A stretch of DNA of 64,000 nt from positions 558,001-622,000 of the forward strand of contig NC_082422.1 of NCBI RefSeq assembly GCF_004011695.2, in the 5' to 3' direction. Positions 13,560 through 62,640 of this stretch are shown in pieces. Position 1 is the first letter of the stretch. Every line of letters begins with the position of its first letter. Below the pieces are notes generated by a model. The model had not been told where the DNA came from. It searched no databases and was given only the letters and a program-made list of their open reading frames with translations. Source of the stretch: Ascochyta rabiei (lineage: Eukaryota; Ascomycota; Dothideomycetes; Pleosporales; Didymellaceae). Both the position numbers and the translations under genes were made by a program.

Positions 13560-14812
13560 ATAGCTCTAAGTATGCCTGCAGTTGCATTTAGTTCCTTACG
13601 CTACACCTTAGCGTGGCTAAATGCGACTACTTCGCTTTAGCTTATTAATCTGCTATTGTTGTAGACTTGTAGTGCGTTAAGTGGCGTTTGCTTTAGTCTT
13701 TAGGATAACTTGTTATATAAATTAGATCTAGAATGTGATGTTTATAGTTAAGCTTTTTAGTTATGTAGTCTGTATCTTAGAAGAGCTACATTGTTAGTAT
13801 TAAAAGTTAGGAAGTAAGTGAAAGCTAAATTAGATAAGTAGCTATTTACTTAACTAAATGGTGGTTAGCTCTAATAATACTAGCTGTAATTTTCTCTATA
13901 ACTGTATCTGTGTAAGCGTTAGTATGCAAACTTTATAGCTTAAAAGTACATGTCTTAACTTGCATATTGTACTAGTTAGGTGCCTAGGAGGAAGAATGGG
14001 CATGGCGCTTACATCTACAACTCTTAGGTTTTAAACTCTGTAGACCTTTACTCTTAGATCTACAACTGCTATATTATCCTTCTGCTAACCTATCTTACAT
14101 GTGCAGGAGGTATGCTAGATAGTTATAAGGCTATCCTGCACTACACTAAGAATTATCTTATTACTGTTCTTGTCTATGCCTAGCTAGTACTTATTGCTAA
14201 TAATAACCTCTTATATAGTCTTAGACGCCTATATCTAGCGTATGCAGCAGTATAGAGTAATAGCAAGTTCTTAGTTAGCCTTTAACGTGAGCTAATTAGG
14301 GTTAATAAGTAGGGGGATATTTATTAACAAAGACTAGATTGTTACGTTGCTGTAGGATGTTAGAGTAACAATACTACTAAGGATTATAGTATATTATTTT
14401 CTATTTAGAGGCTGCTATAATATAGGAAGAGAGAAATTGCTAATGTACCTGTTACTGCTAATAAGTTGTATGCTATTAGTGTTAGTGTTACTCTATAAGT
14501 ATGCCTAATCTTACCTTAGCCTCTAGCTAATTATCTGTAAACTCGTTTAGAGCTTCTGTAGTTAACTACAAGAAGTTTTACCAGAACTCCTATAGCAACT
14601 TCTCCTAACTAAGGAACTTAATAATATTAGATAAGAGTACACCTTTGCTCTTTAGAGCATAGTTAACTAAGGTATTAGTAAGCGTAACTAGACTGTGTAG
14701 CGTATTGTTAAGCGTATTAAAGTTAACCTTATAGGCTGGTCTAAACATAATGTAGTCCTACATATTCTGTTCTACCCTAGGGCAATTAGCAACTACGTTA
14801 ATATTAAACTTT
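13560..14812. other. AT-rich decayed DNA, left flank of the Fot1 insertion
   Basis: Apart from a hairpin at about 13585-13625 (GCATTTAG...CTAAATGC with inner CGCTA...TAGCG), I see only stop-rich sequence without a coherent domain. The same kind of sequence resumes at 16681, so the Fot1 element split an older, already repetitive unit. Confidence 0.4.
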
Positions 14813-14814
14813 TA

Positions 14815-16678
14815 ACGTACCCTACGGGCAAGCCGCTCAACAGGCGAGCCGCTCACTTTTGCCAAGCCCCCACCAAACTTCTCCTCCTACACCAATGTCT
14901 TCTTAACAACACCATTTAGACGCGTTAAAGGAAGCTCAGATACAGCTTGCGCTCCAGGCTCTTAAACAAGACGCGAATCTCTCTTAGTAACGCGCTGCAG
15001 CTATCTACAGGGTCCCTCAAAAGACACTAAGCAACTAACACACAGGACGACCTTCACGCGCAGATTCTATAGCCAACTTACAGAAGCTGGACAACAATAA
15101 GAAGGAGGTAATTATTAAGCATGTTCTTAAGCTAGATGCGCAAGGATTTTCCTTTTAGCTCTTAGATGTAGCTACTATAGCCAATTCTTTGCGCGCTAAG
15201 TGCAATCTAGGCCCTATTAGCGTAAACTGGCCTAGTACGTTTGTTAAGCAACACCTAGAGCTTAAAGTCAAGTTTAATTGCAAGTACAACTATAAGAGAG
15301 CCCTCTGTAAGGATTCTAAGGTTCTACAGGGCTAGTTTAGCCTAGTAGCTAATATTAAAGCTAAGTATAGCATCTAGGATAAAGACACATATAACTTTAA
15401 CAAGACAGGCTTTATAATAGGCTAGATCTCCCCAGAAGCAGTTGTTACAGCTTTAGAACGACAGGGTCGGCCAAAGGCTATCTAGCCAGGCAACTGAGAG
15501 TAGGCTACGGCTATAGTAAGCATTAATGCCAAAGGATAGGCTATTCCAGCCTTCCTTATCTTTAAAGCCTACTACTACCTCTCTGCCTGGTACAAAGAAG
15601 AGGATCTGCCTTATAACTGGGTTATTAGAGTCTCTAATAACAGCTAGACTACTAACAAGCTTAATCTTAACTAGTTAAAGCACTTTAACAGGCATACAAA
15701 GGAGCGTACTATTAGCACCTACTGTTTGCTTATTATTAATAGTTATAAGAGCTACAACTCTCTTAAATTCCAGCAATACTGCAAGGATAACAAGATTATT
15801 ACTTTCTGTTTACCTTCTTACTTATTACACCTTACACAGCCCCTTAATGTAGGTTGTTTTACTACTTTAAAGAAGGCGTATAGGCGCTAAGCTAAAATAC
15901 TTATATATAACCAGATTAACTATATTATAAAGACAGAGTTCCTGCTATGCTTTATACGCGCCTACAATGCTGCAATTACTTCTAAGAACATCTAGAGAGG
16001 GTTCTAAGGTGCTAGATTAGTCCTATTTAACCTAGACCAGGTTATAATGGCCCTTAATGTAAAGTTGCGCACTCTATTACTACTACTACCTGTTAACAAC
16101 AAGCTCTGGCAGTTACAAACCCTAAGCAACACCCTTAAACTTAGGTCGCAATTAACGCTTGTAAAGACAAGGATTTAGAGGCATATAGATAGTTCGCCTA
16201 CCTCTATAGTTAAGGCGTTTAAGAAGGTAGTAAAAGGGGCAGTAATAATTGCGCATAAGCTAGTGTTGGCGCAACAGGAGATTACTTAGCTTTAAGCTGC
16301 TAATAAGGCAGCTATACAACAAAAATTATATAAAAGAAAGTAAGTTTAGGCAGAAGGGACCCTAACAGTTAAGGATAGCCTGCAATTAACAACTCTGAAG
16401 GAGTTTGGGGCGCGTAGTGATGGGAAGAAGGCAAAGAAGCAGGTGCGCGCTGAAGGAGGTAAGCCCTCCTAAAGACGCTGTAGACAGTGCAATTAGACAG
16501 GACACAACGCGCGAACGTGTTAGAAAGAGGTAGAAGTAGTTTCTAAATAGTATTACAGGCCATACTGCACTTTGCAGCACTAAACTAGGTTGTTTTGGGC
16601 CATAATAGGGTGGAGTTTAGTGGGGGCTTGGCAAAAGTAAGCGGCTCGCCTGTTGAGCGGCTCGCCCGTGGGGTACGT
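14815..16678 (+). mobile_element. Fot1/pogo-type (Tc1-mariner superfamily) DNA transposon, 1864 bp
   Basis: Terminal inverted repeats start ACGTACCC and are flanked on both sides by TA (14813-14814 and 16679-16680), the expected target duplication. The TIRs run about 65 bp (14815-14879 and 16614-16678) and differ at about five positions, all transitions. Each TIR holds an internal short repeat of GAGCCGCTCA type. A single transposase gene fills the interior. It is complete in structure but dead by point mutation, and is inserted into older AT-rich DNA. Confidence 0.95.
14895..16583 (+). pseudogene. Fot1/pogo transposase, inactivated
   Basis: ATG at 14895 to TAA at 16581-16583, about 562 codons in one frame with many TAG/TAA codons. 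In order: an N-terminal psq-type helix-turn-helix (QRAAAIYRVPQKTL), a CENP-B-like second helix-turn-helix region, the DDE_1 catalytic domain (YNFNKTGFIIG, GRPKAI-PGN, IPAFLIFKAYYYLSAWY, QPLNVGCF) and a C-terminal CCHC zinc knuckle (CRQCN-TGHNARTC, from 16479). The three catalytic Asp positions all read Asn: codons at 15399, 15738 and 15846. G-to-A change explains each. The enzyme would cut and paste the element at TA sites. The protein family and length are ordinary; the inactivation is typical of RIP. Confidence 0.93.
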
Positions 16679-16680
16679 TA

Positions 16681-17440
16681 CAGGATTTCTTTAGGTCTAA
16701 TACCTAACACTATTAGTAGCTAAGGACTGTAAAAAGCTCTAGCTAATACAATTACTTCCTTTAATACGTAAATGTTGTAGGTTAAGGCTAAAGATTGCAC
16801 AGTAATGCTAGTTATAGTTTTATTCCTGTTAAAGATGATTTTTTATGCTATAGTGTTAGCGTAGACAGTAAGCTTTTTGTTATTAAGTGCTGTCTAGATA
16901 TACTTATTAGATGCGCTATTTATCTAATCTAAAGAGCGTATAAATGTCTAGGTGTAATACATGCCTAGTAGTTTACTATTATTAAATAGACTTGTCTTAT
17001 TCAGCCTAAGGGCAAGAAGGGACTTCTTTATCTACGTTAAGAAGGGGGAAACATAGTTTAAGTATCTAATTTAGGTAGGCCCTCTACGCATCTTAAAGGC
17101 GTCTTTCTTATACTATATAGTAATATTAGCTCTACGTACAGTATTATTTAGTTCTGTAAAGTTAATAGCCTTCTTAAAGTATAGTCTGAAATTTAGAAAG
17201 GTATAGCTCTTATTACTAACAGTATTAGCCTAGGTTTAGTATAACCCCTTAGTGCCCTTATAACAAACAAGTGTACGTTTATAGTAGGCAAAGACAATTT
17301 GTTGTACCTATGGTGGATTAAGAAGTTTAGGGCGGAACTACGGATTTTTTCGCGTTAGCGAATGATTTAAGAAATATGTTGGAAGCATACTTGTGTTCTT
17401 TTGTGTATATTCTTGTAGCCACTTCAAAGCATACTTCAGA
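16681..17440. other. AT-rich decayed DNA, right flank of the Fot1 insertion
   Basis: Continues the sequence interrupted at 14814. There are stop-rich frames with runs such as FLCYSVSVDSKLFVIKCCLDILIRC that suggest an old coding region, but no domain is recognisable. Composition returns to normal at about 17340-17440, where the HET-NACHT-WD40 gene begins. Confidence 0.35.
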
Positions 17441-17480: not shown

Positions 17481-20400
17481 CTACGATAACACCGCACGTG
17501 GGGTGTCCAGGTTAACACTGCAGATCCACACTCTGCCAGTCCCAACGCCTATACTGACTCTGTTCCCGCACACCGCAGAGCATGACGGTCGATACTCTGA
17601 TGGTATCCACAACAAGTTCCTGCTGTTATACATGATCCATATGGCATCGGAGCTGAGGGTTGTGCCTAGATACTGAGGACGTGCGGGTTCCAAGAGACCT
17701 GGCTTACTAGGACCTCCTAGGTCGTGTATGGCAATGGGGCCTATCTCAGTTCGGAGAAAGGAGCTAGTCGGATCGAAGGATAGGCTGTAAAGAGTCTTGC
17801 CAATGTTAAGCGTCTGCAGACACGCCCCGCTGCTCGCATCCCACACCTTGACCGTGTTGTCCCATGACGCTGACGCCAGCTTGCTTAAGTCGTGCGAGAA
17901 GGCTACAGAGCTAACACTGCTGCTATAGCCCTTAAACATGTGCAGTCACGCCCTGCTGCTTACATCCTACACCTTAACTGTGTTGTCCTATAACGCTGAC
18001 GCCAGCTTGCTTAAGTTGTGCAAGAAGGCTACAGAGGTAACACTGCTGCTATAGCCCTCGAGCGTGTGCAGACACGCCCTGCTGCTTGCATCCTACACCT
18101 TAACTGTGTTGTTGCGTGACGCTGACGCCAGCTTGCTCGAGTCGTGCGAGAAGGCTACAGAGGTGACAATGCTGCTATAGCCCTCGAGCGTGTGCAGACA
18201 CGCCCTGCTGCTCGCATCCCACACCTTGACTGTGTTGTCCTATGACGCTGACGCCAGCTTGCTCGAGTCGTGCGAGAAGGCTACAGAGCTGACACCACTG
18301 CTATGGCCCTTAAGCGTCTGCAGACACGCCCTGCTGCTTGCATCCCATACCTTAACTGTGTTGTCCTATAACGCTGACGCCAGCTTGCTTGAGTCGTGCG
18401 AGAAGGCTACAGAGGTGACAATGCTGCTATAGCCCCTGAGTGTGTGCAGACACGCCCTACTGCTTGTATCCTACACCTTAACAGTCTTGTTGTATAACAC
18501 TGACGCCAGCTTGCTTGAGTTGTGCGAGAAGGCTACAGAGGTGATAATGCTGCTATAGCCCTTAAGCGTGTGCAGACACGCCCTGCTGCTCGCATCCTAC
18601 ACCTTAACGGTCTTGTCTTCTGACGCTGACGCCAGCTTGCTTGAGTCGTGCGAGAAGGCTACAGAGCTGACACCACTGCTATGGCCCTCAAGGGTCTGCA
18701 GACAAGCACTCCAGCTGTCGCTCATCGCTGGCTTAACAGTGATTCCTTTTGACTCTTTGTGCTGGAACAACCTTCTTGTCGCGCTCCATGTCGGACTAAA
18801 CAATAATGCAGATGTATATGTTTGCAGAGGGTAGTTCTCAATTACTCCTTTATGGTACATGACGAATCGGCTAGCATCTTGAGCAAGCTCAGTAAGCTCA
18901 TTCGCATCTTCCATTACCTACAAGAATTAGCGTGTGCAATAAGACGATCGTATAACTGCATTATCTTTGTATGCCGTACCTAAGCTAGAGAGCATAGCTT
19001 TGTCATCGAAATCACCCCTTTCCCCATGCTTCTGCACAAACTGAGCCCTTCTAGCCAGTAGAGATACTTCTGCTTTATGAACTCATTAACGGCACCTGCG
19101 ACTTTTAAACCACTTACACTATCTCCCCAAGACATGGGCTTCGAGTCGTACAGATGGTCGATCCAGTAAACGCACGAGTAGCGCACAGTCGCCAGCGGAT
19201 CAGGATTGGGTAGTTCAGCCTCATCAATCGAGATGCCTAGCTTACCAAGGCTATACATATCACGTTTTAGTGTGGTAGACATGAGCTCAAGCGACCGAAT
19301 GAATAGGTCATAGTGCATCTTGTTCTCAGAAGGAAGCGCTGCAGCTCGCATCTTATCGCTTAGATAGTCCTTGGCTGACTGGTGAACGAGGTAGACTTGC
19401 TCCTCACGAATCGTTAGGAATGAGCCACACATCGCTACAATCTTCCTCGCAGTGTCCGCCAAGGCTGTCGCCCGACATGATAAGCCGCGCAAGCTGCCCA
19501 TCTCAGCAAGGTAGAGCGGGCGGTATGCGATTGCTGCAGTGCAGAGCAAAGACTGACAGATGTCCGTATTCCTTGGCGACAACTGCCGGATCTGGTCCGT
19601 CATGCGATCATATAGCTGGGGCAGGCCCGCTGGCGCTTCTTCTACTACCGCGAGAGGGTCCCAGCTTTCTGGCTTCTCAAGCTCTTGCATCATCAAAGCA
19701 ACCCATAGAAAGGTGCCGTTCGCCTTGCAGCGCAGCTTATCTCGCACTTGCTCTCGCAAATCATCCTCTTCGAGCGACTCGAGGCTAGACAGCTTCTGAT
19801 CGATGTATGCATCCACTGCTCGAGCCACCTGCTCCGCATTCTGCTTCAGTTCCAGGCTCAGCTTCGCCGTGTCGCCAACTGACCTGAGCTTCTGCTTTAT
19901 GTGACCCTCGTTCCGACTCGACACAAGCCACTTTACACGAGACGACGACGCCGCAGTACGGACGATCAGCTCCAGCAACTTGGGCAGGTCTATCGCGCAT
20001 TCATCGAGAGCATCAACAACTAGACAGCTTGACTTCAGGTCCTCATCCTGCACTATGCATGTGAAGATTTCGGATAACGCTACCCAGGCGTTGGCGTCTT
20101 GGAAGAGAGAAGCGCCTGCTTGATCGTATCTCTTCCGCAAGTGAGATGTCAGCCGCGGTTGCTGCTTAACGAGCAGGTAGATCAAGCCGCGCAACACCGC
20201 GGTGGCGCTGTTTAAGCGGGAGTCGGTACCTTGACAGTAGAAGAAGGACACATCATTCGTCGACTTCTTCAGCTCGTCGATAATGCCACAGAGTAGCATC
20301 GTCTTGCCCTTGCCGGGATCGCCTCTGATCCACAGCAGTCGGCTGTGTGGGTCCTGCCGCCATTGTTGGAAAGTAGCGTTGTTGAGCACCCAGCGGTAGG

Positions 20401-21226
20401 AGTCAGCTAGCAGTCCGCCTTTGGTCTCCTCGATGCGCTTCTTGTCGTCACGCGGGTCCGTGTGGCGTACGTCTTGAATGCATCTTTCTAGCTCGTGAAT
20501 CTCATTCATCAGACGTCTGAAAGCACCAGCTGCACCTTCGCCATACACCGGCGCTATGTCGACACTGAAGATACCTTGCAGTGAGTACGCTCCATCTTCT
20601 TCGCGTTCGGTTTTCCGGCCTTCTTTCCACCGCAGTCGCTCGTTGACGCTGAACTGAGAAAGAGGGGCTCCGTCAAGCGCTTCGGGTGAGATGCTGGTGA
20701 TTTTATGAGTCAACAACTTCAGCGATGTTTTATCACCAAGCTTCGCCCACTCTTGGGAGAAGAACTCGACAGTGCTTGGAGCAAGCAGCTCTTGAAGCGT
20801 CCAGCCACGCGTGAACCATCGGCTGTCCCTAAAAGCAGCCTCCCAAGTGAACTTGCCGAGCTTGGCGTCGACTTTTCTCTTCCTTGTCGATACATCCGAT
20901 AGATACACATAGCATCTCGCCGCGTTCTGGTACCAGCGAAACATCGATCGGATGGCGTGAGAGAGCTCAGCCTTGTCTGTCTTGTCGATGCAGCAGGTGT
21001 CAACCCAGAAGTACTGTAAGCGATCTTGCCGTGCTTGTTGTCCGCAGTAGTGAATCTTATCGTAGCCACGCTTGGCCTTGCCATCGCCGTCCTCGATGTC
21101 TGCGAAAGTCACCTCCTCCGCATCTGATCCCCACGTGTGTGATAGTATCGCATAAGGCGGTGTCGCGCGATCGTCGAAGCTTACGATCCCGAGCTCACCA
21201 CATTCGTCGTAGTGCAAAAGACGCAT
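17481..21226 (-). pseudogene. HET-NACHT-WD40 protein (heterokaryon-incompatibility / STAND NLR family), with nonsense codons
   Basis: Exon 1 runs from the ATG at 21226 to 18980 and encodes 748 residues. A HET domain (about 25-165: YAILSHTWG, FWVDTCCIDK, WFTRGWTLQELLAP) is followed by a NACHT domain with P-loop GDPGKGKT (302-309) and Walker B LVVDALDEC (402-410), then a winged-helix-like stretch (YLVHQSAKDYL). Exon 1 ends at TAG 18982-18980, right at a GTACGG...TAG intron (18979-18918) with a CTAAT branch site. The expected codon there is Gln. Exon 2 continues in frame (VMEDANELTELAQDASRFVMYHKG), through seven 42-residue WD40 units with four more TAGs, to a conserved C-terminal cap (EYRPSCSAVCGNRVSIGVG) and TGA at 17481. 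Such proteins (HET-E/HET-D type) sense non-self through WD40 and trigger cell death through HET. A truncated HET-NACHT product of 748 residues is still encoded. Confidence 0.9.
17816..18697 (-). repeat. Seven near-identical 126-bp WD40 units
   Basis: The word GCAGACACGCCC(T)GCTGCT recurs at 17816, 17942, 18068, 18194, 18320, 18446 and 18572, exactly 126 bases apart (42 residues). Units read on the minus strand as SGACLQTLEGHSS-VSSVAFSHD and KLASAS-DKTVKVWD. High internal identity is the hallmark of the repeat class that evolves by unit shuffling in HET-E/D-like genes. In four units the W codon before D is TAG (17967, 18093, 18471, 18597), and H in GHS is often Y. Both are C-to-T type changes. 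Confidence 0.93.
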
Positions 21227-22440
21227 CGGTTCGGGTGGACGTGTGACAGGCGCATGCGGCGAGGAGGAGACGCGAGAGGCTCGACGCGGCAGTTTGGTAG
21301 GATGAGAGCGCCGCGGCTGGCTCTCTAAGAAGAGCTCACGGAGAAGGGTAGGAATGGCTACAAAGCCCCGGGTAGCTACACGGTTGAAACAGCGGTTTTA
21401 GTGTTGCAGGCTGAAGCTGGTGGTTTGCACCATGTTCTGAGCTCTGAGAGGATGCCAAACGGTCTGGAGGCGGATGACAGATGCGGCTGATTGCGCTCAT
21501 GCAGGCCCAGCACAGCCCCGACGAGTCGCATCTTCGCAATGACCACGCCCCCATTGCGATGCACTTCCCATTATCAGTTATCTACTAAATCAACTTATCT
21601 CGTTTGTTACAGTCGCGAGGTGGCTGACCACAGACGGCGGTGAGCGCATTGAGACGTTTCCGGGCAGCGTGGCTTAGCGCTGGGATTGAGGCCACGATGC
21701 CGCAACGAGGCTTAAAAATCACTCGAAACAAAAACGGAAAACCAACAGCGTGCGCCACAGCTCGTCTCCGCGACCGATCCGCAGTGGCGTTCCGACTCGC
21801 TAGGTTGCAATTTGTAATCTTCTCTCCTAATTAGCAAAATTGCTAGACTACACACTTCTTTAGTTAAAAGAGCTTCTAACGCCTAAGGGTACAATCTTCC
21901 TTAACTTCGCTTACTTCTAACCTCTCTAATCCTTACAAAGATCTACTAGGCTGTGAATAGATAGGGGGGCACTAACAAAGGGTTAATTAACAGTGTTAAC
22001 AAAGCAATTAATAGCAGAGCTAGTACAGCAGCACTTATTCTTAGGGACAAATAGACTGGTGTAGAGTTGACTAAACAATGCTGCATATCAATCTAAGGTC
22101 TGTAGATGAGTGAACAAGAGGCTCTGAAAGTCCGGAGTGCGAACCTGTATCGTTACACCGTGCGTCTCGGCACGTATGGACGGACCTTAATTAAGTTTTT
22201 CTTGGTGTAGGTATTGCGTGTTGAAGTGGTAGTATGATTTTGGTGGGGTGGCTCATTGTGCCGTCGGGCTCATTGTGCCGTCCACCTCGGTACGACAACG
22301 CTTTGCTTGCGACACGTCCATAGAAAGGCCTTGTTGTGTTTGCGTGGACAGCCTTCTACTAACAGTGCAGGACCAGAGACTATAACAATGTTCCACAATT
22401 AAACAGACGCTGCAGCCGTGTTTGCAAAGACAAAGGATAA
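21227..22440. other. Upstream region of the HET gene; no supported gene
   Basis: 21227-21830 has normal composition and likely holds the promoter of the HET gene. From 21830 it turns AT-rich. At 22240-22285 the word GGCTCATTGTGCCGTC occurs twice in tandem next to GGTGGGGTGG, resembling one end of a DNA transposon with internally repeated TIRs, but no partner end was seen. Confidence 0.4.
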
Positions 22441-37945: not shown

Positions 37946-38058
37946 TAAGTAATGCATGGACTGACAAGATGTGGGACCACAAACGATCTAATTAGGATTT
38001 CCAAATTCCTTCCATGGTTGGCCTGCATGCCTGCATTGACAGCTTCACATAGTCGCCC

Positions 38059-38331
38059 GTGAGCTTACCTACTCCTTTACCTACTTGCGTGCCTACTTAC
38101 ATACCTACTAGCGTGGCTACAGACGTACCCACTCAGTTACCTGCTCGGTTGCCTACCCAGGTGCCTACCCAGATGCCTACCCAGATGCCTACCCAGATGC
38201 CTACCCAGATGCCTACCCAGGTGCCTACCCAGGTGCCTACCCAGGTGCCTACCCAGGTGCCTACCCAGGTGCCTACCCAGGTGCCTGTCCACGTGCCTGT
38301 CCACGTGCCCATTCGTGTACCTATGCGTTGA
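38059..38331 (+). repeat. 12-bp minisatellite (left array)
   Basis: Eleven near-identical TGCCTACCCAG(G/A) units at about 38149-38280, with degenerate units on both sides from 38065 to 38325. On the plus strand the array is open and would read PTQVPTQM repeats, but the ORF needs a GTG start and has no other coding feature, so I treat it as noncoding. Compare the array at 40064-40330. Confidence 0.85.
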
Positions 38332-54977: not shown

Positions 54978-55274
54978 ATGCCATTCGGGCCTGTCGAGAT
55001 AGTTAACAACATGGTCGAGATAATGAGTAACGCTCAGCTGCGTTTACAAGGTGGGGGTAAAACAGAAATGCGTGTAAGCGGGCTAAAATGCACCACTGTG
55101 CAGGAAGTGCTGGCTTACTTACGCAGCACTAGATCTTTAGCAGCACACATAAGGAATAGATTGTATTCAAAACGAATAGGAGAAATCGCACGTCTTAAGA
55201 ACGACTTACCTAAGCAACAAGGGGCAATAAAGGAATTAGCTCTCAATTATTTCCGAAGCAACTACCTATTTTAA
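54978..55274 (+). CDS. Small open frame (98 residues), unknown, abutting the NLR element
   Basis: ATG at 54978 (GCAATGCC context), open to TAA at 55272-55274. Reads MPFGPVEIVNNMVEIMSNA, LRLQGGGKTEMRVSGLKCT, VQEVLAYLRSTRSLAAHIR and EIARLKNDLPKQQGAIKEL. It is helical and charged, and has no stop although its surroundings are full of them. No family recognised. The stop lies only three bases from the TA that precedes the left inverted repeat at 55280, so the end may have been set by the insertion. Confidence 0.45.
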   Translation: MPFGPVEIVNNMVEIMSNAQLRLQGGGKTEMRVSGLKCTTVQEVLAYLRSTRSLAAHIRNRLYSKRIGEIARLKNDLPKQQGAIKELALNYFRSNYLF

Positions 55275-55279
55275 GTGTA

Positions 55280-56460
55280 ACGTCCCCACCGGTGTGCTGA
55301 GAAGCCTGCCGCAACGAGAAAACCAACTAGTACTTGGACTCTATACAGCCTTAATATTATTGCGCAGTCCTAATTATCTGCTCTAAGCATACTTTATTAC
55401 TGTTCTACAGATACTTGCGGACATTTGTACATCCTTACAACTAGAAATTACAATTGTCTTGTTGCTGTTGCATTACTCTCTGTAATAAGCGTTCTTTTGC
55501 TGTAGAATAGAACAGCCTTACTACAGCACTAGCGTTAAGCTCTTGCTACTTTTAGATCTAAGAGACAAGTTGAGTTTAAGCTAATAGATCTTACTGCAGT
55601 TATAGAAAGCTCTTGCTAGGCCTGTAGCTGTTGTTGTATGTAAATGTATGCAAGCTTACTATAAGAGCTAGTACTTCTTAACCTAGGCAGCGGCTATCAC
55701 TGGCTAGTGCAAGACAGCCCTAAGCATCTTGTATTGTTAGTGCACTGTAACCTAACTTACGTAATAACTTAGTACTAGTAACTAAGAAAGCGTTGCTAAG
55801 CCTGTGGCTAGGCAGACCGGCCTATAGCTAATCTGTAGGTTTCTTATTCCTGTACGCTTACTGTGGCTCTAAAAGTTAGACTTAACTAGACACAATCTTT
55901 ATTGTCTGTTAGGCCGGCGTTCTATAGTAGCTTAAGTGCATTAACACCTTGCTTGTGTTCTAGGAGCAGGCCTTTGTAAATCTCCTTAACTAATTATGTT
56001 GTCTCTCTATTAATATCCTATGTTGCCTGAACACAGCATGTGCTGCCTATGCTTCTACTATTCTACTGTCTGCTGTTGCTCCTCTCTCAGCTTTAAAGTC
56101 ACCTCCATTGTGTTTGAATTGCTGGCATATAAAAGTGTAGACTTAGACCAATCTATAGCAGCTTTATCTCTCCTACTTACCTAAGTCTATTTGTTAAGCA
56201 GTTGCTGCGTTAAAGCATACTCCTCTAGGCATGCTTAAGTTAATAGATAATCTAGCCTAAGTAAAGCCTAGTAGCCTATATAGGCCCTTTTGTAGAGCAG
56301 TAAGGTGTCTTTGTACTTATTCTGTTAATGCGTAACAAAGGCCAGCCAGTAAACACTTGTCAGCGTGTCTAGGTGCTTCTTGCCTGACACCTCCTCTCTT
56401 AGTGCCAGCACTTGTCGATGCGCCTGCTCCGCTGCTCTGTAGCAACCTAGCGTCTGCTCG
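55280..56460 (-). pseudogene. RIP-damaged 3' portion of the left NLR copy and noncoding arm
   Basis: Read on the minus strand below 56463, the TPR part goes on past TAG with AAEQAHRQVLALREEVSGKK, HLDTLTSVYWLAFVTH and a degenerate LLLYKRAYIGY repeat, then fades into stop-rich DNA to the TIR. It has only one full TPR unit against four in the right copy. Its closest match is the right arm, in reverse. Confidence 0.6.
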
Positions 56461-56462
56461 CA

Positions 56463-57292
56463 CTATCCTACCCTCTCCAGCAGCAATAATCTCCTCTTAT
56501 CTTTATACACTTTAGGCAGGCCTGCTACATGTATAGCGTGCGTTAGATATACAGTCCACATCTCTCTTGTCTTGTGATCTCTAAACAGCACTACCTCTAG
56601 CAGCTGCGCCAACGCCTTACGTGGCCATATATGCCAACGCTCTTGCTCTTTGAGCCAATTGCAAGTGGCTAAGCGGACCAGTTGGTGGACGTTGAACGCT
56701 CGCTCGCGGTGCTGAAAACCTGTCGCACCCTGCTGCTGCTGCTGCTGCTGCTGCTGATGCTGGCGTTCGGTGATAAATGCGTATGCGCTCAGCGTTCCAA
56801 GCGCCTCTGTCGTTGCGAGCACCGTCCTGCCCGGCCATAGCAGCGACGCAGGCACATCCTCGCCAGTCGTGCAAGCCATCAGCGACAGATACGCCGCAGC
56901 CAGCCTATCTCGCGCCCGAATCTGGCTGAATGAGATGTACCACGTCACCGCCACCGGATTCTTGATCTGCCGGTACCTGCCCTGGTCTTCGAAGTCTTGG
57001 CTGAGGAGATCAGTAGCCTCCCTCTCGCTGCCCCGGTAGATAGCGATGTAGTCAGAAAGGCGAGCGTTGTTTCCAACAACAAAGGCCGCTGCCTGCACAA
57101 TGGCAAGAGGAAGGTAGGTGAGAAGCTCAAGGAACTCGTGAACAACCTCAATGTCTTCAAGCAGCTCTTTTCCAGGCAGACGTTGCCTTAATATCTCTTC
57201 TGCTTCTTGTTCCTCGAGCTCGCTCAGCGCCACGATATTGCTCTCTGCCAACTTGACTGCTGCTTTCCGCGTCCGGGTGGTGAAAACGATGG
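56463..57292 (-). pseudogene. NB-ARC/TPR NLR fragment (left copy), truncated in NB-ARC
   Basis: Frame from about 57292 (SIVFTTRTRKAAVKLAES, the RNBS-B-like motif) to TAG 56463. Reads ALSELEEQEAEEILRQRL, LTYLPLAIVQAAAFVVGNN (the GLPLA-like motif), WYISFSQIRARDRLAAAYL, AYAFITERQ, a run of 10 or so Gln from a CAG-type repeat (56728-56760), and HQLVRLATCNWLKEQERWH. It aligns residue for residue with the right copy (SIVFTTRTAKAAVDLAES onward), but they are clearly diverged paralogues. The P-loop half is missing: at about 57292 the sequence switches to an oppositely oriented DUF6594 gene piece. Confidence 0.75.
56728..56760 (-). repeat. CTG/CAG trinucleotide run encoding poly-Gln
   Basis: CTGCTGCTGCTG repeats inside the left NLR fragment, read as Gln on the minus strand. 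The right copy has only ERQQSGQEG at this place, so the run expanded in the left copy alone. Confidence 0.85.
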
Positions 57293-57703
57293 AGACGGTC
57301 GCGGACCGACCCGTTCCAGCGCTGGCTCCACAAGTACCTGCGGGCCTTTCGGTACTGGAGGTTGTCGCGAAAGGCCAAGAGCAATGGCGAAGGTCTCGGG
57401 TCGATCACTGGTAGACAGCGGCGGTGGTCGTACCAGAACACGATACTGATCGCCGAGGTCATCGGACGGGTGACGACTGCAGCGCTGACGGCTGTCTTCA
57501 TCATTGCACCGTTAGCTATTATGTCGCGTGAGTCGTCAAAGAACGTCCAGCTTGTAGTTGTTTCGGTGTGCATCATCATCTTGTCTTTCCTTGTGTCGCT
57601 GTTCTTGAAAGTTTCAAGCTTCGAGATGATGGCGGTGTCTGCTGGGTACGCTGCTGTTCTTTCGGTGTTCGTTTCCAATGTCCCCGCGAGTGCGGGGCGA
57701 TGA
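57283..57703 (+). pseudogene. C-terminal fragment of a DUF6594-type membrane protein
   Basis: From about 57283 the plus strand reads DPFQRWLHKYLRAFRYWRL, SYQNTILIAEVIGRVTTAA, LTAVFIIAPLAIMSRESSK, VVVSVCIIILSFLVSLFLK and FEMMAVSAGYAAVLSVFVS to TGA at 57701-57703. The W..yl and two hydrophobic helices followed by A-aAYAAVLvVFv are the C-terminal signature of the large fungal DUF6594 family. The N-terminal half is absent: upstream sequence is the antisense NLR fragment. No stop interrupts this piece and GC content is normal. DUF6594 domains do occur near fungal NLR genes, but any role here is inference. Confidence 0.7.
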
Positions 57704-58161
57704 TTGGGTCGCCGTGCCGCTGGGAGATGCATTAATCTAGCAGAGTATAGAGCCTAGCGATAGGAATGTGACTGATGTCAGATTATAAATACCATAGCAA
57801 CGACTTAAGCAAGTCAAAGTCTGCCCATCAAGAAGACATTGTGAAAGATTCAATCGGGCGGCAGCCCACGCGCGCGGCCAAGCGCTACGCCCTCCCTCCC
57901 TGCAGCGCCTCCGCGACGCCTCGTAGGGCTCGCGGCACCCGGAGCATAGCACACGGCTGACGGGTGACGCGCGAGCGGCGCAGCACAGCGCAGCGCAGCT
58001 CAGCCTGGCACATCACGCTGACCAGGCTAAGGCGGAGAGACTGCAATCAGGCTGAGGCGTCAAACACCCTCCTTCGCGCTCTCGCCTGTGACGGGTGTTG
58101 GCACCTTCCACAGCGCTGCTTCTTCTGCCTGCGTTGTACTGCACCAAACACTCACACGACT
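57704..58161. promoter_or_regulatory. Intergenic region upstream of the PNP-type NLR
   Basis: Normal-composition DNA. TATAAATA at about 57783-57790 could be a TATA box, though it is some 370 bases upstream of the chosen ATG. A GC-rich stretch with CGCAGCGCAGC repeats (about 57975-58000) precedes the start. Confidence 0.3.
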
Positions 58162-61050
58162 ATGGCCGCCGGCGACAGGCAGCGCGCCTGCGACGACTAC
58201 CACGTCGCCTGGATCTGCGCCGTTGCCGACCTCGAGCTGCTGCCTGCCCGCCTGATGCTCGACGAGGAGCACCCCACCCCGCCCTACGACACCCACTACG
58301 ACGAGAACACGTACATCTGCGGCTCGATCAACGGCCATGCGGTCGTCGTCGCAACCTGTCCGCCGGGCGAGACGGGCAACGTCAACGCCGGGCGTCTGAC
58401 GGGGTCCATGTTCAAGACGTTTCGCAACATCCGCATGGCGGTGCTCGTGGGCATCGGAGGCGGCATCCCCAGTCCTGAGGTGTCTGAAGAGTCACTAGAG
58501 AACATCCACCTCGGAGACGTGGTGGTGGGATGGCCCGGTGACGGCAAGCCGGCGTGCGTGTACCACGACCGTGGCAGATCCAAGGTCGACGGGCAGTTTG
58601 AGCTAGTCGGCACGATGCAGAACCCGGACTGGAGGCTCACCAACGCGCTTGGCGTGCTCGCGTCCGACCACGAGCTGGGCAGGGCGACGTTCGGGGACCA
58701 GCTAGCAAGGCTGCAGCGTCACAAGAAGAAGAGGAAGTTTGCGCACCCTGGCCTCGAGCACGACAAGCTGTTCAGGGCTGCGTACCACCACAACGGCGAC
58801 TACACCTCAAAGTGCGCGGCGTGCCGCGATCAGAGCGAGCTCGTTGAGCGCCCCCAGCGGACCGAGGAGGACCGGCAGACGCTCGTCTTCCATCGCGGGC
58901 GGATCGCTACGGGCAACGCAGTGATCCAGGACGGCGAGCTGCGGGACCAGATCCGGGCGCGATGCGACGGGGCGCTCTGCGTGGAGATGGAGGCAGCGGG
59001 CGTCGACGCCAACCGACGGTGTCTGGTGGTCCGCGGCGTCTCCGACTACGCCGACTCGCACAAGAGCGACGTGTGGCGGTCGCACGCTGCGGGCAACGCT
59101 GCTGCGTTCACGCGCGAGCTGCTGTGCAGGGTGCAGCCAGGCACAGTGAAGGAGATGGAGGGGTCGACTGAAGGTTAGTGGCGCGTCTGCTTTGCGATAA
59201 TAGCACGTAGGAGTATGTCAATTAAATACATATGAGTAGGCGGCAGTTTGAGCAGATAACTAACACAGAATAGCGCTGTGGCTTGTTCCTCTGCCAAGGC
59301 CGCTCTCTTTCGTCGGGCGAGAGTCGCAGCTCGCTCAGCTTATCAAGAATGTCGCATCAGAAGGCTGTCGCCGACTCGCTGTATACGGTCTTGGTGGCTG
59401 TGGCAAGACAGCCCTCGTCCTTGAGACAGCTTATCGGACACGAGAGCAGCACCCTACGCGCGCCGTCTTCTGGGTGCCGGCGGTCAGCCAGGCTAGCTTC
59501 GAGCAGGCGTACCGCGAGATAGGGACGCTGCTGCGTATTCCAGGCATCGCAGACGCCAGGGCTGACGTGAAGCAACTAGTCAAGGCGAGGCTGAGCGACG
59601 AGGGGTCGGGGCAGTGGCTGATGGTGGTCGACAACGCAGACGACGTCAGTGTTCTCTTTGAGCCGCTTGACAGGGAAAGCAGCGCAGACCGGCTTATTGA
59701 CTGTCTTCCATACAGCCGCAAGGGCTCCATCGTCTTCACCACCCGGACGGCAAAAGCTGCAGTTGACCTAGCTGAGAGCAGAGTGATCGAGCTGGGTGAG
59801 CTGGACGTATCAGAGGCGACGGAGTTGCTAAGGATCCGGCTGTTCCAGAAACACCACTGCCAGCTTGAGGATGAAGAGGCTGTGTACAAGCTTCTTAACA
59901 TGCTCACCTTCCTAGCTCTTGCCATCGTCCAAGCAGCCGCGTTCATTAACAAGAACAACACTACCCTCTCTGACTACATCTCGCTGTACAGAGCGAGCGA
60001 GCAGGCAGCCGCCAAGCTTCTCAGTAAAGAGTTCGGAGATCAGGGCAGATACCTGGAGATTAGAAACCCAGTGACCACGACGTGGATCATTTCGTTCGAG
60101 CAGATTCGCAAGCACGACAAGCTAGCTGCGCAGCACCTGTCATTCATAGCCTGCACAGCGAACACTAATATACCAGTGGCGATGCTGCCGGCTTCAGGGT
60201 CTGCTGTAGAGCAAATAGAGGCGATCGGGACGCTCAAAGCTTATGCATTCATCACTGAGCGGCAGCAGAGTGGACAAGAAGGACTAAGCAAAGCGCTCGA
60301 CGTCCATCCACTAGTGCACGTAGCAACTCGCAGCTGGCTCAAAAACCACGGCCAGTGGGACGTCTGGGCGGAAAGAGCACTGAAGCGACTGCTAGAGATT
60401 GTGCCCTTTGGAGACTACAATACGCAAGAGGCGTAGACAGCGTATCTGCCTTACGCTAAGCATGTAGCAGGTCTGTCTAACGTGTACAAAAATGTGCGGA
60501 GAATGTTACTACTAGACAGGGTAGGGCGGTGCAAGCAGACGCTAGGCTGATATAGAGCAGCGGAGCAGGCGCATTGACAGGTGCTGGAGCGAAGAAAGGA
60601 GGTGTCTGGCAAGAAGCACCTGTCAACGCTGGTCAGCATGAACAACCTGGCACATGCACTGAGCGGCCAGGGAAGGTACGCAGAGGCTGAGCAGATGCAC
60701 TGCAAGACGCTAGCGCTGAACAAGGAGGTGTAGGGCAAGAAGCATCTAGAGATGCTGGTTAGCATGAACAACCTGGCATAGGCACTAAGTAAGCACAGAA
60801 GGTACGCAGAGGCCAAGCAGATACATTAAGAAGAGCTGGCACTAAGCCAGGAGGTGTTAGGCAAGAAGCACCTACACACGCTAACGAGCATGTCTAGCCT
60901 GGCGCAGGCACTAAGCGGCTAGGGAAAGCACGCAGAGGCCAAGCAGATGCACCGCAAGACGCTGGCGCTGAGAGAGATAGCGCTGGGTAAGAAGCACCCA
61001 GACACGCTGACAAGCGTTTACTGGCTGGCCTTTGTTACGCATTAATAGAA
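58162..61050 (+). pseudogene. PNP_UDP - NB-ARC - TPR fungal NLR, nonsense codon after NB-ARC
   Basis: I start at ATG 58162 (ACTATGGCC); the frame is open upstream, but the homologous domain begins here. Exon 1 (58162-59173) is a PNP_UDP phosphorylase-like domain: YHVAWICAVADLELLPARL, GIGGGIP (97-103), LGDVVVG, CVEMEAAG (273-280), RGVSDYADSHK. A 100-bp intron (59174-59273, GTTAGT...ACTAAC...TAG) joins in phase to FVGRE and the P-loop GLGGCGKT (376-383), then WLMVVDNADD (Walker B), GSIVFTTRT and LTFLALAIVQAAAF. The frame stops at TAG 60434-60436 (residue 725), where the homologous left copy has Trp (in MWTVYL). It goes on in frame with about four TPR units (VSMNNLAHALSGQGRYAEA) and more TAGs to 61050. 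Such NLRs are thought to sense non-self by TPR and signal through the N-terminal domain. A 724-residue PNP-NB-ARC protein is still encoded. Confidence 0.88.
60590..61035 (+). repeat. About four TPR units, 126-bp period
   Basis: GAGGTGT(C/A)(T/G)GGCAAGAAGCACCT and ATGAACAACCTGGCA recur about every 126 bases (60601, 60727, 60853, 60979 region). Each unit reads GKKHL-TL-SMNNLA-ALS-QGRYAEAEQMH-KTLAL. Three units contain TAG. The left copy has a single unit. Confidence 0.8.
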
Positions 61051-62004
61051 CAAGTATAAAGACACCTTACTGCTCTACAAAAGGGCCTATATAGGCTACT
61101 AGGCTTTACTTAGGCTAGATTATCTGTTAACTTAAGTATGCCTAGAGAAGTATGCTTTAACGCAGCAACTACTTAATAAGCAGACTTAAGTAAATGTAAG
61201 AGATAAAGCTGCTGTAGCTTAGTCTAAGTCTACACTCTTAGATGTTAACAATCTAAACGTAGTTAAGGTAACATTAAAGCCTAAACAGAAGTAACAACAG
61301 ATATTAGAGTAGTAGGCATGTAGAAAGTATAGACTACGTTTAGCTAATATAGAATACTAGCAGAAAGACAATGTAATTAGACAAGGAACTTTACAAAGAC
61401 CTGTTTCTAGAGCATAAGAAAGGTGCTAATTTACTTAAGCTGCTGTACAATATTAGCCTATAGGGTAATAGAGATTGTGTCTTGTTAAGTCTTAACTTAG
61501 TAAGCCACTATGCGCGTATAGGAATAAGGCAGCTCTACCTAGCTACAGACTCTACTACGCTTACTTAGTTACTAGTGCTAAGTTATAGTGTAAGTAAGGT
61601 TATAGTGTAATAATAATACAAGACGTACAGGGCTATCTTACACTAGCTAGAATTAGCTATAGCCTAAGTTAAGAAGTACTAGCGCTTATAGCAAACTTGT
61701 ATGTATCTTTGTACAACAACAGCTACAGGCCTAGCAAGAGCTTCTTAGGACTGTAGTAAGGTTTACTAGCTTATGTTTAATTTTCCTAGCAGGTATAAAG
61801 GTGTTTAGAGCTTTACGTTGGCGCTGTGGTAAGGTAAGTCTGTTTTACAGCAAATAAACGCTCTTTGCAGATAGTAGTGCAATAGAGACAAGACAGTTGT
61901 AATTTTTAGTTATAAGGATATATAAATATCTAGGAGTGCCTATAGAGTAGTGCTAAAGTATAGATAGAGTAGACAATTAGGATGTTGTAATAAAAAGGCT
62001 GTAT
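61051..62004 (+). pseudogene. RIP-damaged right arm beyond the TPR units
   Basis: Continues in frame for a while (NKYKDTLLLYKRAYIGY, CLEKYALTQQLLNKQT), then becomes stop-rich AT DNA up to the right TIR. It is the reverse complement match of about 55343-56340. Confidence 0.55.
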
Positions 62005-62067
62005 AAGGTCGAAGTACCTGTTGGTTTTCTCGTTGCGGTGGGCTTCTCGGCACATGGGTGGGGACGT

Positions 62068-62640
62068 TATATCCAGCGATACTGCAACAGTTTTAGGATT
62101 CTCTATCCTTACTTATGAGAATTTTCACCTTGTGCCGTTGCGTAAAAGCTAGCCTACCTCTAAACCTATTGTGCGAAGCTTTTCTTTGAGTCTCGCACGT
62201 ATCTCAACGCTTGCCCTTTGCCTACAACTGTTTTCACCGCAAGATTTCAACGAATATCAGAAGCATAGATAAATTTCTATTGCCTGGATTTATACTGCAC
62301 ATAGAGGCGTAATCTTAATCAGGTCGCCTATCTGGATCTCTCATTTGAGGGTACCGCCCATAACACATTAGACTAAAAGGATGTAGTAATGACCTGTGTA
62401 GCTCGATATAAGACAGCTAACAGAGATTAACTATTCTAAAACTGCTTCTTGCTTGTTTCTAGCTGGCTTATGTATAGTGAAGTGCTAGACTCTTAGCTAG
62501 TTAAATTAGAGCAAAGTCTTAGAGCGTTAGTCCTTTCCTTGTTGTCTAAGCCGTATATTCCACCATTATCTTTAAGCTCTGTATACTAAACCTAGCTGTT
62601 ATCTTAAGGTAAATCTGCTACTATAGGTGGATTAATGCCT
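62068..62640. other. AT-rich DNA outside the element, no gene seen
   Basis: Starts with TA directly after the TIR. No coherent frame on either strand. Confidence 0.3.

Follow-up and report, generated by a model that had tools for sequence, protein, structure and literature searches.

An inverted NLR pair inside pogo/Fot1-type ends in Ascochyta rabiei, probably recombined and decayed by RIP

Introduction

How do two NLR-derived units come to stand opposed to each other between inverted ends that resemble those of a DNA transposon, and have the receptor genes travelled with these ends or been recombined within them? The question is raised by a locus of the fungus Ascochyta rabiei, situated in a window of 64,000 nucleotides (assembly GCF_004011695.2, contig NC_082422.1, positions 558,001 to 622,000 of the forward strand), which is the whole stretch of DNA analysed here; positions are counted from its first base unless a contig handle such as C18 is given. 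A preliminary description of this DNA saw two NLR genes inside a unit bounded by terminal inverted repeats (TIRs) and proposed either that NLRs travel, and are amplified, as cargo of a transposon or that two NLR-bearing units had recombined head to head. Domain assortment is already known for fungal NLRs, as far as the excerpted literature goes. We thus focus here on the ends of the unit, on the two NLR-derived arms and on the point at which their halves appear to have been re-joined.

Results

The unit spans 55280-62067 and has a TA dinucleotide outside each end, at 55278..55279 on the left, where the arm homology begins, and at 62068..62069 on the right, where it is placed by the arm alignment. 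The two arms are mutually inverted in blastn, 55278-57294 against 62069 back to 59725. The left arm (55278..57294, gene sense minus) comprises the 3' flank, a decayed TPR/C-terminal part and the C-terminal half of an NB-ARC domain, while the right arm (59725..62069) lies in the plus sense. Their homology falls into an outer block, 55278-56439 against 60933-62069, with 76% identity over 1164 columns, and an inner NB-ARC block, 56361-57294 against 59725-60631, with 67% over 947 columns. In local alignment both outer edges coincide with TA followed by ACGTCCCC, and no similarity extends outside the TA. The inverted repeats at TA and the long arms reaching the NB-ARC, both described earlier, are thus confirmed by self-alignment. 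Of the TIRs of about 62 bp in the same description, the inverted ends at TA stand but a discrete repeat of 62 bp does not: the terminal pair measures 82 bp at 85% identity with the TA included, and the arm homology carries on inward from it. The left pogo-like TIR, which begins ACGTCCCCACC, occupies 55280..55359 (plus) and carries the signature of TA followed by ACGT; the right one, at 61988..62067 (minus), is placed by the 82-nt pair and the arm alignment. By eye, an open frame of about 98 codons (54978-55274) stops a few bases before the left TA.

The terminal 82 bp have a GC content of 0.48-0.49, compared with 0.36-0.39 in the adjoining flank. All mismatches taken together are fewer there than in the adjoining arm (12/82 versus 127/517, p=0.049). 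Transversions, however, are equally frequent in the terminal 82 bp and in the next 0.5 kb of arm (5/82 versus 40/517, Fisher p=0.82), and the idea that the TIR is more constrained than the arm was dropped for this reason. The hexamer TAACGT occurs 42 times per 128,000 strand-positions of the window, so that a homology edge would fall on it by chance about 3 times in 10,000 per offset.

The resident Fot1/pogo elements (Tc1/mariner superfamily) offer a direct comparison. A search for DDE_1 in the genome gave 150 scored matches out of 666 candidates, and the best 30 loci were fetched and examined. Both ends carry TA followed by ACGT in 22/30 of these loci and TA followed by AGAT in 6/30, with 2/30 unclassed; in the 28 classed loci the TIR, measured from the motif inward, has a median of 70 bp (range 45-323). 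The unit shares with these elements the TA flanks, the ACGT start and the inverted ends, and the pogo-like ends of the preliminary description therefore hold. On the other hand, most examined resident elements measure about 1.8-1.9 kb, contain a DDE_1 gene and have short TIRs, whereas the unit has 6.8 kb, arms of 2 kb, a single copy, no transposase that we could find and a TIR sequence unlike theirs. Pogo insertion targets TA, and the two flanking TAs are thus no proof of a single insertion. A Fot1/pogo element also lies in the window, at 14804-16689; its TIRs measure about 79 bp (89%), its ends are TA followed by ACGTACCC, and its DDE_1 match is interrupted by four TAG and one TAA.

If the ends had carried NLR genes about the genome, further copies might be expected, and the preliminary description had proposed a genome-wide search for them. 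Searches of the 40,901,820-base genome with the 83-bp DNA and with a 25-mer allowing 3 mismatches, which can miss repeats, gave no other TIR copy, and the 1.1-kb arm matched only its own locus in a DNA search of the 40.9 Mb with the same reservation. Neither an autonomous element nor any other copy sharing the TIR was found in the A. rabiei genome, which for this genome is the outcome that the preliminary description had named as refuting its proposal. The 13-mer formed by TA and the TIR start, at up to 1 mismatch, is not enriched, with 28 matches including the locus's own two against 67 for the reversed control; a single exact match was seen on C1, and inspection by eye found nothing similar beyond it. 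The joined flanks match only themselves in the genome, and no paralogous empty site was found there. No credible transposase remnant was detected when the arms were compared with the 30 pogo loci and with the pogo element of the window, the weak short matches having blastn E values of 0.006 or worse; as a control, the window's own pogo element matched 24/30 loci by blastn and 30/30 by tblastx. Among 25 of the 91 tblastx rows, the matches of the whole unit with E near 1e-4 fall, by our reading of the coordinates, on a CTG/CAG run near 56731-56763.

Other NLR genes were surveyed for enclosing TIR pairs, which the preliminary description had also envisaged. Around the best-matching other NLR gene, 12.5 kb of sequence contain no inverted pair with the gene between its members; the only inverted repeats listed there are short, telomere-like and on one side (311.6-312.3 kb of C3). 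None was seen in nine stretches of 3.3-4 kb at seven NLR-like places, two of which were covered by two overlapping stretches each, although most of these stretches are short enough for distant TIRs to escape notice. Among NACHT-type loci outside the window, the survey took in C3:88708, inside one stretch. A tenth stretch, the pogo locus L047 beside one NLR-like place, shows its own TIR. The TIR, arm and flank searches thus give this locus alone and the TIR start is not enriched, so that we see no support for an amplification of NLRs as transposon cargo; the unit may have been inserted once in the past, in a pogo-like manner.

The right copy is a PNP-NB-ARC-TPR receptor gene. Its first exon (exon structure inferred) encodes a PNP_UDP domain at 58162..59178, plus strand (PF01048; PNP_UDP_1, E 1.8e-10 in a Pfam scan), and the best homologue of this domain is P0002 (92%), with proteins of Ascochyta clinopodiicola at 88% and of Boeremia exigua at 86%. 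The NB-ARC, with the P-loop GLGGCGKT, runs from 59264 to 60436 on the plus strand, its frame ending in TAG at 60434-60436. It scores above the curated cut-off (C18:617321-617989, 29.3 bits), whereas the shorter frame 59474-60433 alone matches no Pfam family. TPR-like repeats in 126-bp units follow at 60439..61029 (plus) with several in-frame stops. PNP and NB-ARC occur in one chain in P0110, P0144 and P0170. Furthermore, equal contig sizes suggest PNP neighbours for a left-type protein (P0025/P0236, 30,255-bp contigs) and a right-type protein (P0039/P0123, 25,565 bp). P0002, P0006 and P0018 are the closest PNP homologues, and their C-terminal parts differ from the right NLR; orthology to it thus does not follow. 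Apart from the left fragment, five sequences of the genome match the right NB-ARC at 31-43% identity and with E below 1e-10, and a further one has an E of 8.5e-4; these relatives appear to form a small family.

The left copy is considerably reduced. Its open frame, 56463..57294 (minus), encodes the C-terminal half of an NB-ARC, with homology beginning at SIVFTTRT; it lies inside the annotated gene EKO05_0010025, to which it is 100% identical over 276 residues. It matches no Pfam family by itself and is identified by its 54% identity to the right gene. Past this half the left arm holds a decayed TPR region, and the PNP and the P-loop half are absent. Thus, of the two NLR genes first described, the right one is upheld in its PNP_UDP, NB-ARC, P-loop and TPR parts, and the left one is without PNP and P-loop half. 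The N-terminal PNP_UDP domain and an NB-ARC with P-loop, both features of fungal NLRs, are present in the right copy only, and an open TPR repeat domain is absent from the locus, the right repeats and the left part both being interrupted by in-frame stops. The left joint is abutted by a headless C-terminal fragment of a DUF6594 protein at 57299..57703 (plus; PF20237 with E 4.5e-13, matched from position 161 to 237 of its 238), a feature absent from the preliminary description; in a search for its parent copy the genome gave only one 31% relative, on C4. The gene model EKO05_0010025 seems to fuse the left NLR fragment with the antisense of 57299-57703.

Elsewhere in the window, 17680-21300 (minus strand) holds a NACHT NLR (NACHT match C18:577877-578341) with seven 126-bp repeats, which may be WD40 units, as we presume, and a 12-bp periodic repeat array occupies 38056-38319.

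The shared region of the two arms starts with a 25-bp block, CTCCATCGTTTTCACCACCCGGACG at 57270..57294 (minus) on the left, 24/25 identical to CTCCATCGTCTTCACCACCCGGACG at 59725..59749 (plus) on the right, and we regard this block as the putative recombination joint. Beyond it, the two NB-ARC C-terminal halves (C-halves) differ by pS 0.63 and pN 0.28, with dS 1.36 and dN/dS 0.25 over 233 codons, and are by this measure old paralogues. The protein P0212 matches the right gene at 91.7% over the 84 residues before SIVFTTRT and at 61% after it, whereas it matches the left fragment at 93.5% over the 138 residues after SIVFTTRT. Among 222 proteins, compared over at least 60 residues, no other exceeds 66.9% to the right C-half or 70.6% to the left. 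Trees were built from 34 of the 222 proteins, hand-picked mainly from the rows listed, with P0236 and P0221 left out of the N-half as too short, and they disagree on the partner of P0212. In the C-half tree (36 rows) the left fragment joins P0212 at 100/100 and the right gene lies in another clade (97/99); in the N-half tree (33 rows, 84 columns) the right gene joins P0212 at 93/81, the bootstrap not having settled. The switch of affinity at SIVFTTRT, together with the conflicting trees, indicates that halves of two units were re-joined, probably by inversion or by exchange between the opposed arms, as judged from sequence comparison. To this extent the idea of NLR units recombined head to head is sustained, as the opposed NLR-derived units do show signs of recombination. 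P0212 is a single protein, from a 3,192-bp contig, and the one example of the alternative join. P0219, from Pyrenophora, ranks next after P0212 as a match to the right N-half, with 85.9% over 64 residues, and its C-half is right-type (65.6% versus 54.4%). It should also be said that the joint is the inner edge of the arm homology, a coincidence that a plain crossover does not require.

Divergence along the arms is uneven. Transversions between the arms amount to 98/695 in the NB-ARC halves, but to fewer in the 3' flank (40/517, p=0.0005) and fewest in the C-terminal/last-TPR part (18/514, p=1e-10); the coding NB-ARC thus differs most, which is the reverse of simple ageing from one duplication. 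A conversion-like tract of 68 bases identical between the arms, at 61058..61125 (plus), is longer than the longest run (55) in 5000 simulations with independent columns and the same mean identity. The distal arms are rich in transitions (transition:transversion 77:18 and 87:40) and have TA/AT ratios of 1.8-2.5, compared with 0.5-1.0 in the PNP and NB-ARC regions. In the unit's outer flanks TA/AT is 1.4-1.6, and RIP-like mutation extends beyond the arms. A second RIP index, (CA+TG)/(AC+GT), is mixed: the TIRs, the 3' flanks and the C-terminal part of the right arm have 0.59-0.85, whereas the left C-terminal part reaches 1.15 and the right TPR region 1.47. The TPR regions of both arms contain stop codons. 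On this base composition it is likely that RIP acted on the locus, and the duplication of the arms may have drawn it.

Discussion

We consider it somewhat more probable than the contrary that the locus is a recombined, RIP-decayed inverted pair of NLRs of the PNP-NB-ARC-TPR class inside pogo/Fot1-type ends. The opposed arms would have crossed over, so that the central segment with the PNP and the N-terminal part of the NB-ARC was inverted, or an equivalent exchange would have taken place, at the 25-bp near-identical block, and heads and tails would have been re-joined there, at the head of the shared region. As a result, in A. rabiei, which we take to be the changed lineage, the PNP and the P-loop half read into one C-terminal NB-ARC/TPR half, leaving the other C-terminal half headless on the opposite strand, while P0212 carries this head on that other half. 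Conversion between the arms would later have homogenised part of their distal regions, and RIP, as the presumed mutator and probably attracted by the duplication, would have mutated the TPR and 3' regions and left the pair largely decayed. The ends themselves may have arrived by transposition. Our confidence in this reading is slightly lowered by P0219, since its C-half is right-type.

The readings that compete with it differ mainly in what they make of the ends. It is rather unlikely, in our estimate, that a non-autonomous pogo/Fot1-like transposon, mobilised in trans by a transposase of the same genome, carried the NLRs as true cargo and so amplified them. Transposase was plentiful, given the 150 scored DDE_1 matches, and both arms end at TA and the motif found in 22 of the 30 examined pogo loci, whose 28 classed members have a median TIR of 70 bp; yet the TIR, arm and flank searches returned the locus itself, the TIR start is not enriched, the arms gave no credible trace of a transposase where the control pogo element matched 24 of the 30 loci by blastn and all 30 by tblastx, and the best-matching other NLR is not enclosed by an inverted pair in its 12.5 kb. 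A simple inverted duplication covering one NLR gene together with the 3' flank, its edge falling on TAACGT by chance and no transposon being involved, would suit a single locus whose terminal 82 bp resemble the adjoining arm in transversions. We nevertheless think this unlikely, as the edge motif is rare (42/128,000), fits the local pogo ends and has TA on both outer sides, and as the terminal GC content departs from that of the flank. Two separate NLR-bearing pogo-like insertions in opposite orientation, with their inner ends lost by deletion, would explain why only outer ends are found, would accommodate paralogues too old (dS about 1.4) for a recent duplication and would be served by flanking TAs that fit any pogo insertion. 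This too is doubtful: there is no inner TIR match and no second arm locus, and NB-ARC matches elsewhere in the genome reach 43% at most.

The direction of the exchange is a separate matter. That the lineage of P0212 is the recombinant and the right gene ancestral is a minor but real possibility, made more probable by P0219: this second-best match to the right N-half carries a right-type C-half, such C-halves exist in other fungi, and the alternative join is seen in one protein only. Set against it, P0212 stands equally near to the right N-half (91.7%) and to the left C-half (93.5%), as though these had been one gene, while no protein among the 222 exceeds 66.9% to the right C-half; moreover, the N-halves of left-type proteins reach 71-79%, so that the N-half discriminates poorly. 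A bolder version of the favoured recombined pair, which we hold to be quite improbable, would make the TIR-bounded inverted pair a recombinational switch, in which the PNP/P-loop head flips onto either C-terminal half until RIP eventually closes the switch. In this version A. rabiei and the organism of P0212 would display the two alternative joins of the switch.

Several known systems share part of this arrangement. ToxhAT, a unit of 14 kb that carries ToxA in wheat pathogens, is bounded by TIRs of 74 bp, and in the excerpted account an inversion lies exactly at the TIRs and intrachromosomal recombination is a strong alternative to transposition (PMC6737239). Like our unit it holds host genes between TIRs; as described there, however, it occurs in several species, had no TSD found and is hAT by name, whereas our unit has pogo-like ends with TA and inverted gene arms at one locus. 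The Podospora NWD NLRs (het-d/het-e) share exchange between paralogues and RIP-inactivated pseudogenes, according to the part of the source at hand (PMC1805685), but there it is WD repeats that are exchanged, both within single members and among the ten of the family, whereas here a C-terminal half including part of the NB-ARC would be exchanged between two opposed arms. Starships, too, may carry NLRs on a fungal mobile element; they are, in the available section of that work, giant tyrosine-recombinase elements, unlike the unit (PMC12134995). None of the 16 genome matches to the DUF3435 captain lies in the window. The nearest listed, C18:668050-669366, lies about 46 kb beyond the right edge of the window and is a decayed DUF3435 (Starship captain-like) remnant full of stops. 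In bacterial IS elements, as excerpted, inverted terminal arms recombine and the interior flips (PMC3004938), whereas here the joint is intragenic, at the inner limit of long arms, and a chimeric receptor results. Among the literature matches listed, represented by titles and the starts of abstracts, we found no such fungal NLR case for transposon cargo or TIRs, inverted-repeat inversion or Fot1 gene capture, which is not proof of absence.

Taken as a recombined pair, the locus suggests a route of NLR reshuffling in which large receptor halves are exchanged between opposed arms, and it further suggests that the cost of such an exchange is mutation of the arms.
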